From Actinomycetes bacterium (GTDB lineage: Bacteria; Actinomycetota; Acidimicrobiia; Acidimicrobiales; RAAP-2), in assembly GCA_021848365.1 (NCBI GenBank), contig JAJZUS010000001.1, positions 959,517 through 1,023,516 of the forward strand: a stretch of DNA of 64,000 nucleotides, read 5' to 3'. This document shows, piece by piece, positions 8,303 through 13,472 of the stretch. Made by a program: the position numbers and the translations under genes. Position 1 is the stretch's first letter, and each line of letters opens with the position of its first letter. The notes under the pieces are model-generated. The model made no database searches, was not told the DNA's origin, and saw nothing but the letters and a program-made list of their open reading frames with translations.

Positions 8303-9979
8303 GTGGGACTGTCGATGACCGAGGCGATCGCGGCCGTGACCGCGCCGGGTCAGATGTTCGAGGTGGCGGACGTCGAGCGTGGCGGCGTGGTCAATCGCGA
8401 GTTCGTGAACGCGCCCGAGACGCTGCGCTCGTACTTCGAGCAGCTGGCCGGCGACGATCGGACCTTCCTCGTCTACGAAGACGAGGAGTGGACGTTCGAC
8501 CGCGTTCACCAGGAGATCTCGGCGCTGGCCGACGCCCTCGTCGCTCACGTCGGCGTCAAGCCCGGTGATCGGGTGGGCATCGCGATGCGCAACCTCCCCG
8601 AGTGGATCGTGAGCTTCGGGGCCATCGTCTCGATCGGCGCGGTCTCGGTCTCGCTGAACGCGTGGTGGACCGAGGACGAGATGGCTTACGCGATCGAGGA
8701 CGCCGGACTCACGCTGCTCATCGCCGACCAGGAGCGACTCAGTCGAGCCCACGCGACGTGCCGCGCGCGGGGAGTGGCCATGCTCGGGGTGCGTCTCGAC
8801 CAGCTCCAACCCCCTCCGCCGGGCGTCGAGCGATGGAGTCGCGTGGTCGTCGCGGGTCGTCCGATGCCTCCCGCCGATCTCCACGGGGACCTCGACGCGA
8901 CGATCCTCTACACGTCGGGAACGACGGGGCGGCCCAAGGGGGCGGTCTCGACCCACCGAGCCGTCAGCCAGGCCATCATCGCCTTCGCCTCGAACACCGC
9001 CGTGATCGAGGCGCGTCGCGATCCGGGCGAGGAGGGGTCGGGCCTCGCGCCGTGCTTCATCCTCATCGTCCCGCTCTTCCACGTGACCGGATGCATCCCC
9101 GTCATGATGAGTTGCGTCGCGTGGCACTTCAAGCTCGTGATGATGTACCGCTGGGATCCCGAGCGGGCCCTGAGCCTTATCGACCGTCATCGCGTGACGA
9201 GCTTCGTCGGGGTCCCGACCCAGGCCTGGGATCTCCTCGAGCACCCCCGGTTCTCGGAGTTCGACACGTCGTCACTCGTCTCGATCGGGGGCGGCGGGGC
9301 GCCAGCGCCCCCGACCCTGGTGGCCCGCGTCGAGTCCAGCTTCACGCGGGGGCGCCCCCAGCTCGGCTACGGAATGACCGAGACCAACGCCTACGGTCCG
9401 GGCAACTACGGCGAGGACTACGTGACGCACCCGTCCTCGACGGGCCGGGTGCGCACGGCCGTGCTGGACGTGGCGATCCGCGACGACGAGGGACGCGACC
9501 TACCCGTCGGGGAACGCGGTGAGATTTGGCTGAAGTCACCGACGCTCATCCGCGGCTACTGGCGCCAGCCGGAGTCGACGGCGGCCACGATCGTGAAGGG
9601 CTGGCTGCGCACCGGCGACGTGGGTCGGGCCGACGCCGAGGGCTACCTGTACATCGAGGACCGCAAGAAGGACATGATCCTGCGCGCGGGTGAGAACGTC
9701 TACTCGGCCGAGGTCGAGGCGGCCATCTACGAGATGTCGGCCGTCTACGAGGCGGCGGTGCTCGGGGTTCCCCACGAGCGCCTCGGCGAGGAGGTGGCGG
9801 CGGTCATCGTGCGCAAGGCCGGGATGGAGCTGAGCTCGGAGGCCCTGCGGGACCACCTCGCCGATCGCCTCGCCGCCTTCAAAGTGCCGACGAGGGTCGC
9901 GGTGATCGACGAGCCCCTACCGCGCAACGCGGCCGGCAAGGTCCTCAAGCGCGACCTGGCCGGGCTCTACTTCGCGTAG
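8303..9979 (+). CDS. AMP-forming acyl-CoA ligase (fatty acid-CoA ligase family)
   Basis: The 558-residue ANL-superfamily enzyme activates a carboxylic acid with ATP and loads it on CoA. Visible motifs are the P-loop LYTSGTTGRPKGA (about residue 200), GYGMTETNAYG (about 355), the GWLRTGDVG hinge region (about 433), DRKKDMILRAGENVYSAEVE, and the catalytic lysine motif NAAGKVLKRDL close to the C terminus. The GTG start is supported by the strong Shine-Dalgarno. Medium- or long-chain fatty acids are the usual substrates of this subgroup but cannot be fixed here. It overlaps the convergent Nudix gene by 13 bases. Confidence 0.88.
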   Translation: MGLSMTEAIAAVTAPGQMFEVADVERGGVVNREFVNAPETLRSYFEQLAGDDRTFLVYEDEEWTFDRVHQEISALADALVAHVGVKPGDRVGIAMRNLPEWIVSFGAIVSIGAVSVSLNAWWTEDEMAYAIEDAGLTLLIADQERLSRAHATCRARGVAMLGVRLDQLQPPPPGVERWSRVVVAGRPMPPADLHGDLDATILYTSGTTGRPKGAVSTHRAVSQAIIAFASNTAVIEARRDPGEEGSGLAPCFILIVPLFHVTGCIPVMMSCVAWHFKLVMMYRWDPERALSLIDRHRVTSFVGVPTQAWDLLEHPRFSEFDTSSLVSIGGGGAPAPPTLVARVESSFTRGRPQLGYGMTETNAYGPGNYGEDYVTHPSSTGRVRTAVLDVAIRDDEGRDLPVGERGEIWLKSPTLIRGYWRQPESTAATIVKGWLRTGDVGRADAEGYLYIEDRKKDMILRAGENVYSAEVEAAIYEMSAVYEAAVLGVPHERLGEEVAAVIVRKAGMELSSEALRDHLADRLAAFKVPTRVAVIDEPLPRNAAGKVLKRDLAGLYFA

Positions 9980-10392
9980 AGGCCCTCGAGCGCCTCGCGG
10001 GCGAAGGCGGCGAGGTTGAGGTCGACGATCTCGAGGAGAGGGAACCACTGAGCGCGATCGGTCGTGCCGTGGGCCTCGTGGCGCAGGACGCCGCCGTCGC
10101 GAGCGACGCGATAGATGATGCGCACGGTGTGAAGGCGATCCCCGTTCGGTCGCCGGCGAAGGTCGCTGGTCACCCCGAGGAGTTCGGGCTCGCGGATGTC
10201 GAGCCCGGTCTCCTCGCGGAACTCGCGAAGGAGTGTCTCGTGGGGGGTCTCCCCGAACTCGATCCCGCCCCCGGGGAGCCACCACAGGGGCGGGACGTGC
10301 TCGGGGTTGCTCGAGCGCACGAGCAGGACGTGCTCACTCTCGACCAGCACGCCGTAGGCGCGCACCGTCGTCCGCTCGCGCGCGCGGCTCAC
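9967..10392 (-). CDS. Nudix hydrolase
   Basis: The 141-residue protein has a complete Nudix box (GX5EX7REUXEEXGU) at residues 42-64, with Gly42, Glu48, Arg56, Glu57, Glu60, Glu61 and Gly63 in place. Nudix enzymes hydrolyse nucleoside diphosphates linked to another group; the particular substrate is not evident. The frame is open well upstream, but GTG 10392 (VSRARERTTVRAYGV) gives a normal domain and overlaps the stop of the upstream YHS-permease gene (GTGA), implying coupled translation. Confidence 0.88.
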   Translation of the reverse strand: MSRARERTTVRAYGVLVESEHVLLVRSSNPEHVPPLWWLPGGGIEFGETPHETLLREFREETGLDIREPELLGVTSDLRRRPNGDRLHTVRIIYRVARDGGVLRHEAHGTTDRAQWFPLLEIVDLNLAAFAREALEGLYAK

Positions 10393-11945
10393 GAGGGCGT
10401 GCCGTGGAGGGCGAGGTAGGTCCTCCGGCACCCCTCCCCGCAGAAGTAGTGGGTGACCCCGTCGGCGCCCACGGCCGACAGGGCGGTTGCCGAGTCGACG
10501 CGCATCTCGCAAATCGGATCGACGGCGTCGCCGTTCACGTCCCCGCGCATGGGAGTGCCCGACTCCATGGCGTCGAGCTTCAGGAAGGCCCTCCGGCACC
10601 CCTCCCCGCAGAAGTAGTGGGTGACCCCGTCGGCGCCCACGGCCGACAGGGCGGTCGCCGAGTCGACTCTCATCTCGCAGATCGGATCGACGGCGTCGCC
10701 GTTCGGGTCCTCGTTCATCATGGTGGGCTCCTCTCCCTTGTCGAAGCGCTCGGCGCAGCGCACCGAGCAGAAGTAGACGGTCTGGCCGTCGCGGTAGCGG
10801 ACGGCCACCGGGGCCGTGACGTCGACGTTCATGCCGCAGATGGGGTCGATCGCGACCTCCTCGCCCTCCTCACGACCGCGGGAGAGGACGATGAGCACGA
10901 CGACGACGACGGTGGCGAGGACGTTGAGGACGAGCGTCGAGCCGAGGGGGAAGTGCCCGCTGAGGGCGGCGGAGTGCCGAGCGCCGGGGATGAGGTGCAG
11001 TTGGCGGAAGAGCACCTCGACGACGAGCCCGCCGGCGCTCATGACTACCCAGAGCAGTCCGAAGAGTCGCAGGGCCATCCCGGTGCCGTAGAAGCGGCGG
11101 TAGATGAGCAGCAGTGGCAGGGTCACGAGGTCCGCGAAGATGAAGGCGATCACGCCTCCGAAGGCGACCCCGTGGGCCCACAAGGCAGCCGCGAGGGGGA
11201 TGTTGCCCACCGAGCACACGAACGAGATGACGGCCAACAGTGGGGCGATCACGGCGTTCTCCACGACCGTCAACCAACCGTGCCCGGTGATGAAGAGGTG
11301 ACTCCAGGCGTCGTTGGAGACGTGCACGGTGAGGAAGCCCGCTATGAGGAAGCCCGCGCCGAGCTCCTTGCGCAGCATGGTGAAGTCGCCGATCGTGTAG
11401 CGGGCCGCCAGGCGGTAGTGGCGGCGGGTCGCCAGGCGCTCGCGCCACGTCGAGCAGGCCGGCATGGCCGGCGGGGGAGCGTCCTCGAGGACGCGCTCGC
11501 GCATGGCCGCCTGCGAGCGGGCGTTGTAGACGACCCCGGTCAGGGCGGCGAGTCCGATCACCATGATCACCCCGCCGACCAGCTGGGCCGCGAGGAACTG
11601 CCAGCCGAGGAGGATGTAGAGGACGATCCCGAGCTCGATGACCAGGTTGGTCGAGGCGATCATGAAGATCAACGAGTTCGTCCACGAGGCGCCTCGCGCG
11701 AAGAGCGCGCGCGACATGGCGCTCGCGGCGTAGCTGCACGAGGACGAGATGATCCCCAGCGCCGAGGCCGTCAGGGCGGTGCGGGGCGAGGTACGGCCGA
11801 GCTGGGCCCGAAGCCCGTCACGCGGCAGGAAGCTCTGAACGAGTCCCGAGAGTGTGAAACCGAGGACCAGTGGCCACCACGTCATCCAGACCATGGCGGC
11901 TGCTTCGCGCAGCCCCAGGTAGAGCCAGTGCGCGAGGCCGCTCAC
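10389..11945 (-). CDS. Permease (UPF0718/COG0701-like) with three C-terminal YHS domains
   Basis: The 518-residue protein has an N-terminal membrane region of about eight to ten helices, with small-residue/cysteine stretches SSSCSYAA and FVCSVGNIPLAAALW typical of COG0701 permeases such as ArsP. A soluble tail carries three YHS metal-binding modules at about 363-405, 413-455 and 471-513, each with a PICxM cysteine and a CxxxC pair. The second and third modules are identical over 38 residues. GTG 11945 starts two bases after the upstream mmsA stop; the longer frame reaching 12002 lies inside mmsA. A role in metal or metalloid export or trafficking is inference from YHS/TRASH domains. Confidence 0.82.
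   Translation of the reverse strand: MSGLAHWLYLGLREAAAMVWMTWWPLVLGFTLSGLVQSFLPRDGLRAQLGRTSPRTALTASALGIISSSCSYAASAMSRALFARGASWTNSLIFMIASTNLVIELGIVLYILLGWQFLAAQLVGGVIMVIGLAALTGVVYNARSQAAMRERVLEDAPPPAMPACSTWRERLATRRHYRLAARYTIGDFTMLRKELGAGFLIAGFLTVHVSNDAWSHLFITGHGWLTVVENAVIAPLLAVISFVCSVGNIPLAAALWAHGVAFGGVIAFIFADLVTLPLLLIYRRFYGTGMALRLFGLLWVVMSAGGLVVEVLFRQLHLIPGARHSAALSGHFPLGSTLVLNVLATVVVVVLIVLSRGREEGEEVAIDPICGMNVDVTAPVAVRYRDGQTVYFCSVRCAERFDKGEEPTMMNEDPNGDAVDPICEMRVDSATALSAVGADGVTHYFCGEGCRRAFLKLDAMESGTPMRGDVNGDAVDPICEMRVDSATALSAVGADGVTHYFCGEGCRRTYLALHGTPS
10422..10536 (-). repeat. Tandem direct repeat, copy encoding the last YHS module
   Basis: This 115-base stretch matches 10590-10704 at an offset of 168 bases with 4 mismatches by eye. 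It encodes the third YHS module of the permease. Two of the differences are clustered in one codon pair and all appear silent, since the encoded residues are identical. Confidence 0.95.
10590..10704 (-). repeat. Tandem direct repeat, copy encoding the middle YHS module
   Basis: This is the second copy of the 115-base direct repeat, encoding the middle YHS module. The 53 bases between copies encode a linker and do not repeat. The near identity points to a recent duplication or ongoing gene conversion. Confidence 0.95.
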
Positions 11946-11947
11946 GG

Positions 11948-13426
11948 CTATCGCGTCGTTGGGAATCCGAGGTCGATCTGGGACTCGGACGGCTGCGGCC
12001 AACGCGTCGTGACGACCTTCGCCCGGGTGTAGAAGGCGATGCCCTCGGGCCCGTACATGTGCGCGTGGCCGAACAGCGAGTCCTTCCAGCCACCGAACGA
12101 GTAGGAGGCGACCGGCACCGGGATCGGGACGTTGACGCCGATCATCCCCACGGTGACGTCACGGGTGAAGTGGCGCGCGGTGTTGCCGTCCCGAGTGAAG
12201 ATGGCGGTGCCGTTTCCGTAGGGGTTCGCGTTGATCAGGGCCACGGCGTCGGCGTAGGTCTCGACGCGCACGACGGCGAGGACGGGACCGAAGATCTCGT
12301 CGTCGTAGGCCGGGGTGCCGGGGCGGACGCGGTCGATGAGGCACGGCCCGAGGAAGAAGCCCGGTCCGAGGTCGACGGTCGTCCCGTCGCGCACGACGGT
12401 GAAGCCGTCCTCGCTGGCGCGCGCCACGTAGCCCGCGACTCGGTCGCGGTGGGCGGCCGTGATGAGCGGACCGAAGTCGCTGCGGGGATCGTCACCGGGG
12501 CCGACGACCAGCCGGTCCAGGCGCTCGGTGATCTTGGGCACGAGGCGGTCGCCCACGTCGCCCACGGCCACCACGACGCTGATCGCCATGCAGCGCTCAC
12601 CGGCCGATCCGTAGCCGGCGTTGATGGCGGCGTCCGCGGCCACGTCAAGATCGGCGTCGGGCATCACCACCATGTGGTTCTTCGCTCCGCCGAGGGCCTG
12701 GGCCCGCTTGCCGGCCGTCGTCGCCGTCCGGTAGACGTGCCGGGCCACCGGCGTCGATCCGACGAAGCTGATCGCGTCGATCCCGGGATGCTCGAGCAGC
12801 TGGTTCACGGTCGAGGCGTCGCCCTGGAGGACCGTGAACACGCCGTCGGGCAGTCCGGCCTCCTTCATGAGCTCGGCGACCCGGACCGAGACCGACGGGT
12901 CCCGCTCGGAGGGCTTCAGGATGACCACGTTGCCCGTGGCCAGCGCGTTCGCCGTCATCCACAGCGGCACCATGATCGGGAAGTTGAAGGGGGTGATCGC
13001 GGCGACCACGCCGACGGGCTCGCGCAACGAGTGGACGTCGACTCCCGTGGCCACCTGGGGAGAGAAGGATCCCTTCAGCAGCTCGTTCAGCCCGCACGCG
13101 TACTCCACGTTCTCGAGGCCCCGGGCGATCTCACCACGCGCGTCGGCGAGGGTCTTGCCGTGCTCCGCGGTGATGAGTCGGGCCAGCTCGTCGGTGTGCT
13201 CGACGATGAGGTGACGCAGCGTGAACAGGATGTTCGTCCGCTCCGACAGCGTGGATCGACTCCACGTGGCGGCCGCCCGACGAGCCCCCGCGATCACGTC
13301 GTCGACGAACGCAGCGTCGGGAACGGGGACGTGCCCCGTGATCTCGCCCGTGGCCGGGTTGAAGACCGGGAGGGTCCCCGGTGCCTCGTGGCGCTCTCCA
13401 TTGATGACGTGCGGGATTGTCGACAT
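11948..13426 (-). CDS. mmsA: Methylmalonate-semialdehyde dehydrogenase (CoA-acylating)
   Basis: The 492-residue aldehyde dehydrogenase family protein has Asn148 in TPFNFP and catalytic Cys279 in GERCMAIS. The usual general-base glutamate is replaced by the LGGAKNH sequence, the hallmark of the CoA-dependent methylmalonate-semialdehyde dehydrogenases. The enzyme turns (methyl)malonate semialdehyde into propionyl- or acetyl-CoA in valine, beta-alanine and inositol breakdown. ATG 13426 is preceded by GAGGCGAT; a frame extension to 13462 is less family-like. Its product, propionyl-CoA, is shared with PrpE encoded at 18.2 kb. Confidence 0.92.
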   Translation of the reverse strand: MSTIPHVINGERHEAPGTLPVFNPATGEITGHVPVPDAAFVDDVIAGARRAAATWSRSTLSERTNILFTLRHLIVEHTDELARLITAEHGKTLADARGEIARGLENVEYACGLNELLKGSFSPQVATGVDVHSLREPVGVVAAITPFNFPIMVPLWMTANALATGNVVILKPSERDPSVSVRVAELMKEAGLPDGVFTVLQGDASTVNQLLEHPGIDAISFVGSTPVARHVYRTATTAGKRAQALGGAKNHMVVMPDADLDVAADAAINAGYGSAGERCMAISVVVAVGDVGDRLVPKITERLDRLVVGPGDDPRSDFGPLITAAHRDRVAGYVARASEDGFTVVRDGTTVDLGPGFFLGPCLIDRVRPGTPAYDDEIFGPVLAVVRVETYADAVALINANPYGNGTAIFTRDGNTARHFTRDVTVGMIGVNVPIPVPVASYSFGGWKDSLFGHAHMYGPEGIAFYTRAKVVTTRWPQPSESQIDLGFPTTR

Positions 13427-13472
13427 ATCGCCTCGCTTCCTCCCCAATCTTACGGGGGCCACCGCGGGGGGT

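Follow-up and report, generated by a model that had tools for sequence, protein, structure and literature searches.

Near-identical YHS modules in an ArsP_1-family permease: an older duplication that appears to be reset by recombination

When two neighboring domains of a single protein are nearly identical in DNA, are they fresh copies, or old ones that have been kept alike? A permease gene in the genome of an Actinomycetes bacterium (G000) raises this question. It lies in what we call the window, the whole 64,000-nucleotide stretch of DNA that was analyzed. The relevant features, in positions of the window, are these:

9967 to 10392, minus strand: Nudix hydrolase (PF00293, 3e-21)
10389 to 11945, minus strand: ArsP_1/COG0701-type permease with C-terminal YHS modules (ORF, PF03773, AlphaFold2 model)
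10422 to 10536, minus strand: homogenized 115-nt block, module 3 copy (4 mismatches to 10590 to 10704; covariation between genomes)
10428 to 10520, minus strand: YHS module 3 core, the same in protein as module 2
10537 to 10589, minus strand: unlike linker of 53 nt between the blocks, not homogenized (common to relatives)
10590 to 10704, minus strand: homogenized 115-nt block, module 2 copy (sequence, covariation, tree test)
10596 to 10688, minus strand: YHS module 2 core (DPICEM...CGEGC)
10755 to 10847, minus strand: YHS module 1 core (DPICGM...CSVRC), diverged from modules 2 and 3
11948 to 13462, minus strand: aldehyde dehydrogenase, upstream of the permease (PF00171, 6.2e-138)

The permease starts with GTG at 11945, 2 nt after the aldehyde dehydrogenase stop, and ends with a stop codon at 10391 to 10389. 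Its last bases overlap the GTG start of the Nudix gene (10392 to 10390), GTGA being common to both, as an initial annotation of this DNA had described. That annotation had also seen a COG0701-like permease ending in three YHS modules, and the profile searches agree: ArsP_1 (PF03773) matches across the body (E, 2.9e-55; 187.9 bits against a gathering cutoff of 32.3), YHS (PF04945) matches the entire protein (E, 9.3e-14; 51.6 bits against a cutoff of 30.3), and, with the ORF read from 12002, residues 386, 439, and 495 each open a DPIC...FC...C module. Scored singly against PF04945, module 1 reaches 30.1 bits and module 2 18.9 bits, and module 3 is not listed alone. The putative metal site of YHS domains, given as one Asp and three Cys in the excerpted text of PMC4626032, is complete in all three modules, as expected of members of this family; in module 1, the Asp and the three Cys are kept in 60 of 60 aligned sequences.

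Modules 2 and 3 stand out by their likeness. The tandem repeat reported initially, 115 bases with four mismatches and 38 identical residues, is there in every detail: the mismatches (10488, 10500, 10502, and 10512) fall in three codons and are all silent, so that 38 codons specify identical protein. The repeat has a period of 168 nt, with the linker of ∼53 nt separating the blocks. With its default score, Tandem Repeats Finder misses it; a separate repeat search lists it, as 151 nt at 89%. At the DNA level, identity is 62% between the cores of modules 1 and 2 and 96% between those of modules 2 and 3, and thus the repeat is not a product of chance.

To place the gene among its relatives, we used 99 genomes of the genus, in 91 of which the permease was matched; 80 loci kept from a scan of named genome contigs (L050 to L129), which by their titles are mostly Acidimicrobiaceae and other actinobacterial metagenome bins; and 20 further genomic stretches. 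Genes with ≥56% identity in the permease body were treated as orthologs and those below as paralogs, a cutoff of our own. After removal of duplicates and exclusion of a broken fragment (L144), 48 distinct orthologs remained. The locus is stable and includes the Nudix gene: the ORF covering this gene was matched anywhere in the locus in 25 of 26 ortholog loci, as was an acyl-CoA ligase ORF (25 of 26), and the aldehyde dehydrogenase was found in 16 of the 26.

G000 shares its three modules and their linker with its nearest relative, G107. Over 401 codons of body and module 1, 98 codons differ silently between the two genomes and 2 by a change of amino acid. The 111-nt core of module 2 differs between the genomes by 9 bases and that of module 3 by 8, with six differences identical in both copies; within a genome, modules 2 and 3 are separated by 4 bases (G000) or 1 base (G107). 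Matching codons have changed in parallel, e.g., ACC/ACG, GCC/GCG, and three instances of GGG/GGC. Silent differences in the 37 core codons number 3 within G000, 1 within G107, and 7 to 8 between the genomes; judged by G107, the new mismatches of G000 are AGA in module 2 and ATT and GCA in module 3. Five matched third-position changes link the two copies, and control windows from the same gene reach at most 4, with 0 of 13,490 pairs reaching 5. The modules and linker are shared and the changes parallel; thus, we conclude that the duplication predates the split of G000 and G107 and that the copies were homogenized afterward, a reading that the sequence comparison supports well. A recent duplication of modules 2 and 3, as first proposed, finds no support, given the same modules in G107 at this silent distance and three modules in 11 of 48 orthologs. 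Gene conversion, the other process put forward at the time, or an equivalent recombination, fits the shared silent differences, the control windows, and the grouping of copies by genome.

Could the protein alone hold the modules together? Between G000 and G107, neither core shows an amino acid change, against 7 and 8 silent ones, a pattern that shows purifying selection on the YHS modules; selection for more metal-binding capacity, as initially suggested, is conjecture. Constraint on the protein would account for the identical residues, but the silent sites are alike within genomes too; it is refuted as the sole cause, and we regard it as highly improbable. Misassembly is unlikely too, and a duplicated or collapsed repeat has next to no credence with us: going by their titles, the relatives are all draft or metagenome derived, yet four bases distinguish the copies, their flanks are unlike, the separately assembled genome of G107 has the same arrangement, nine further distinct orthologs from other assemblies have three modules, and G000 itself is in just 3 contigs.

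Homogenization is spread unevenly among the other orthologs. In a DNA tree of module copies, modules 2 and 3 pair by genome in G026, G021, G030, G087, and G116, and the four copies of G000 and G107 fall together. A single clade of all group A module 3 copies was rejected (approximately unbiased [AU] test, P = 1.3e-11), as was a clade of the G000 and G107 module 3 copies (AU P = 0.041). At silent sites, copies are more alike within a genome than by position, the mark of concerted evolution, in G000/G107 and not in G096/G094 or G091/G102. These four three-module orthologs show a more ordinary divergence of modules 2 and 3, with 11 to 19 differences in 111 nt (e.g., module 2 has GPGC where module 3 has GEGC), and identical changes in both copies number 0 for G096/G094 and 2 for G091/G102, suggesting that little homogenization has taken place among them.

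Alternatively, each lineage may have undergone its own recent tandem duplication, with no homogenization afterward. The cores of modules 2 and 3 are 100% identical in DNA within G021 and within G030, two-module orthologs (L035 to L038) sit among three-module relatives, and G116 is a separate case, probably an independent one; all of this would suit such a history. For G021/G030, seven changes are shared, with two at third positions, which lies within the range of control windows. In G000 and G107, however, the linker and module flanks are shared and yet both cores have changed in parallel, which contradicts separate duplications there, and the linkers of G107, G096, G091, G102, G026, and G094 resemble that of G000, the linker of group A being of one design despite ∼20% residue divergence of the body. 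Overall, we find separate duplications decidedly unlikely, and homogenization of an older pair remains our preferred reading.

How many modules a permease carries is itself variable. Among the 48 distinct orthologs, three modules occur in 11, two in 33, and one in 4, so the initially envisaged outcome that all relatives share three modules of normal divergence does not hold; in paralogs, the number rises to four. In the one-module orthologs (G034, G073, G077, and G121; loci L013, L131, L132, and L141), TGA stands where module 2 would have the codon for its first Cys, and what follows has decayed, with Cys lost or nothing YHS-like left. YHS selenoproteins are listed in the accessible parts of PMC13188914 and PMC9312934, and we considered selenocysteine at this TGA; the decayed module downstream, as expected after a nonsense change, led us to reject it. 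The counts and the TGA losses together imply that module number shifts in both directions.

The order of these events is harder to read from trees. The two-module L035 to L038 fall inside the three-module clade, which indicates either loss or parallel gain, and a single clade of three-module orthologs was rejected both for group A (AU P = 0.016) and for groups A and B together (AU P = 0.0225). G000 and G107 themselves are placed with group A in the protein tree of the body and with group B in the DNA tree (92/92), from which L068 (G094), ending at a contig end, was excluded. On the tree, one gain plus one loss appears to be exactly as short a history as two gains; the shared linker design would favor the former.

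Does module number follow habitat? Records with at least three modules made up 13 of 20 whose names begin with a mine-site prefix, 0 of 17 named for palsa, bog, or fen, 0 of 28 named for lakes or water, and 6 of 15 others. The DBS, WY, and TL prefixes denote mining areas according to the part of PMC12153355 available; for the remaining mine prefixes, and likewise for palsa, bog, fen, and lake, only the record names were used. Kinship explains too much of this pattern for it to be significant: it comes down to 2 independent pairs that are supported, or 5 when all branches are counted, with a median sign test P value of 0.5.

G000 holds a second YHS permease (G000:C1:1210041-1211465), whose body is ∼49% identical to that of the window gene. 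Besides these two, no YHS-bearing gene was found in G000 at E ≤ 0.01, and a third ArsP_1 permease of this genome (G000:C1:714301-715173) has no YHS match. Like the window gene, the paralogous type is a YHS permease with variable module number (one to four) and, in some species, homogenized terminal modules. The 80 named loci include ten distinct paralogs with at least three modules. The core DNA of their last two modules is 95 to 100% identical in eight of them and less alike in L080 (82%) and L091 (46%). In L078, L083, L089, and L111, modules 2 and 3 pair by genome; the tree test rejects a clade by position (AU P = 6e-9). Pairs of these paralogs share 8 to 15 changes each. In three of six pairs, control windows reached 6 to 8 matched third positions, with 0.7 to 1.6% of such windows at 5 or above. 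The hypergeometric P values are therefore too optimistic, and the tree test is firmer than the counts of shared changes. A further paralog, L084 (7980 to 9917), has four modules, of which the last two, with their preceding linkers, are identical in protein, and very recent unequal crossing over is the likely source.

The surroundings of the paralog point to copper. CsoR-type matches flank 25 of 52 YHS-bearing paralog loci, and 24 of the 25 are on the same strand and end at most ∼190 bp from the permease match. In 8 of the 52, cupredoxin-like matches lie near the paralog. In G000, its neighbors are a CsoR-type protein (PF02583, 1.1e-24), a protein with a sulfocyanin domain, and a P-type ATPase whose CPC and DKTGT motifs were read by eye, and the stretch around it at the contig end (L145:1-6900; G000:C1:1205000-1211899) is likely a copper island. 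The window gene, by contrast, sits in a fixed locus with the Nudix gene, and CsoR, CopA, and cupredoxin matches were found in 0 of 28 ortholog loci. Separately, we noted that in paralog L149 (G096:C21) a long Ser/Gly/His-rich linker precedes the last YHS module.

What kind of transporter carries the modules? An AlphaFold2 model of the permease (pLDDT, 86.2; pTM, 0.73), built on 60 sequences out of 101 usable ones plus the window gene, shows the tail as three small strand-strand-helix modules. A Foldseek search of the PDB with this model gave no match at E ≤ 0.001, and a sequence search of the PDB returned weak matches (E, 0.05 to 0.6), the best being ribosomal L24e and, for the profile, phenol hydroxylase; in VIA-align, toluene monooxygenase rows (Z, ∼4) cover module 1. 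The top VIA-align row is ArsB (10tp_A; Z, 16.1; 296 residues; rmsd, 4.4; 8% identity), with further IT-superfamily transporters, NaCT (14.0) and NaS1 (13.1), next in rank. Mostly helical models can attain a best Z of ∼14 in this comparison, and the likeness to ArsB is thus not proof; still, it is a strong hint that the fold of the body (model residues 1 to 323) is like that of ArsB and of the IT superfamily. ArsB is described in the portion of PMC13381914 at hand as an inverted 2-fold repeat with elevator-type architecture. When the permease halves are aligned, C70 falls on C244 (hhalign probability, 67.6; P = 5e-5 in local mode; probability, 1.3 in global mode), and both cysteines are kept in 60 of 60 sequences.

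Which metal would the tail bind? Probably a soft one, copper. Copper is the best guess because of the YHS literature, the CsoR-linked paralog, and SO_0444. In the excerpt of PMC4626032, a YHS domain makes a mycobacterial cyclase copper responsive, and PMC3219624, as far as its accessible text goes, reports a need for SO_0444, a member of this broad permease group, under copper and zinc stress. At the window-type locus, the neighbors are Nudix, aldehyde dehydrogenase, and acyl-CoA ligase genes and no CsoR, CopA, or cupredoxin match occurs, so copper is carried over to the window gene from its paralog and from the YHS domain. Alternatively, the permease may export arsenicals, as named ArsP members do, with the YHS tail acting as a sensor or as a trap for As(III) or Sb(III) thiolates. 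It belongs to PF03773, and the closest solved fold is that of the arsenite pump ArsB; however, fold likeness reveals no substrate, and the paralog is linked to CsoR. Arsenical export thus strikes us as possible but doubtful, and we continue with copper.

Taken together, these observations suggest the following model. The gene would encode an ArsP_1-family secondary efflux permease with an inverted-repeat, ArsB-like elevator-type fold, and each of its C-terminal modules, with one Asp and three Cys, would suit a soft metal ion. Modules 2 and 3 may have arisen by tandem duplication in the ancestor of the clade of G000, G107, G026, G096, G094, G091, G102, G021, G030, and G087. Gene conversion or unequal crossing over would afterward have repeatedly overwritten one core with the other, keeping the copies alike within a genome while they drift between genomes, and the same recombination machinery could also add and remove modules. 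In the cytosol, the tail may capture a thiophilic metal, with Cu(I) the likeliest, and either hand it to the symmetry-related cysteines C70 and C244 of the permease or gate the permease. As a whole, we consider it probable that this is an elevator-type efflux permease, that its YHS tail lies in the cytosol, and that recombination adds, removes, and homogenizes the modules, with metal and function as presumptive elements.

Near-identical tandem domains are usually taken as recent duplications. In G000 and G107, an older duplication appears to have been reset by recombination, and repeat identity is therefore a poor clock. The range from one to four modules offers a natural series for metal-module dosage, and the CsoR-linked paralog makes copper the first metal candidate. 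One could go further and picture a recombination-driven rheostat in which, in metal-rich acidic habitats, crossing over and conversion adjust the number and sequence of YHS modules. We rate this idea as speculative and rather unlikely. If it were true, the terminal modules would stay interchangeable, populations could switch their metal-capture capacity quickly, and homogenization would be a maintained feature, independent in the window-type and the CsoR-linked permeases.

How does this permease compare with known systems? From the ArsP_1 family (PF03773) it differs by its added YHS tail. The SO_0444 copper/zinc efflux transporter (NF033936) and SaoE (NF040736) are its best NCBIfam matches, over residues 24 to 354, yet at 53.9 of 300 bits and 56.7 of 325 bits, respectively, both lie far below the NCBI equivalog cutoffs. 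Like ArsB and the IT superfamily, it may be an inverted repeat of two halves, at the low identity given above; the superfamily assignment of ArsP in the available part of PMC7176098, by contrast, is TOG.

In the excerpt of PMC4626032, the adenylyl cyclase of Mycobacterium phlei and a permease of Halovivax ruber likewise carry a C-terminal YHS domain with one Asp and three Cys, and a YHS-bearing permease as such is therefore already in print. Unlike the proteins in that excerpt, the window permease has three modules, two of which are apparently kept near-identical by recombination. Our search of the open-licence literature returned no paper on tandem or homogenized YHS modules. Polyubiquitin is the textbook case of concerted evolution of tandem repeats, in which copies are alike within species and different between them. 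Here, the repeated unit is instead a metal-binding module inside a single bacterial transporter gene. The system is thus a variant of known things, YHS permeases on the one hand and concerted evolution on the other.
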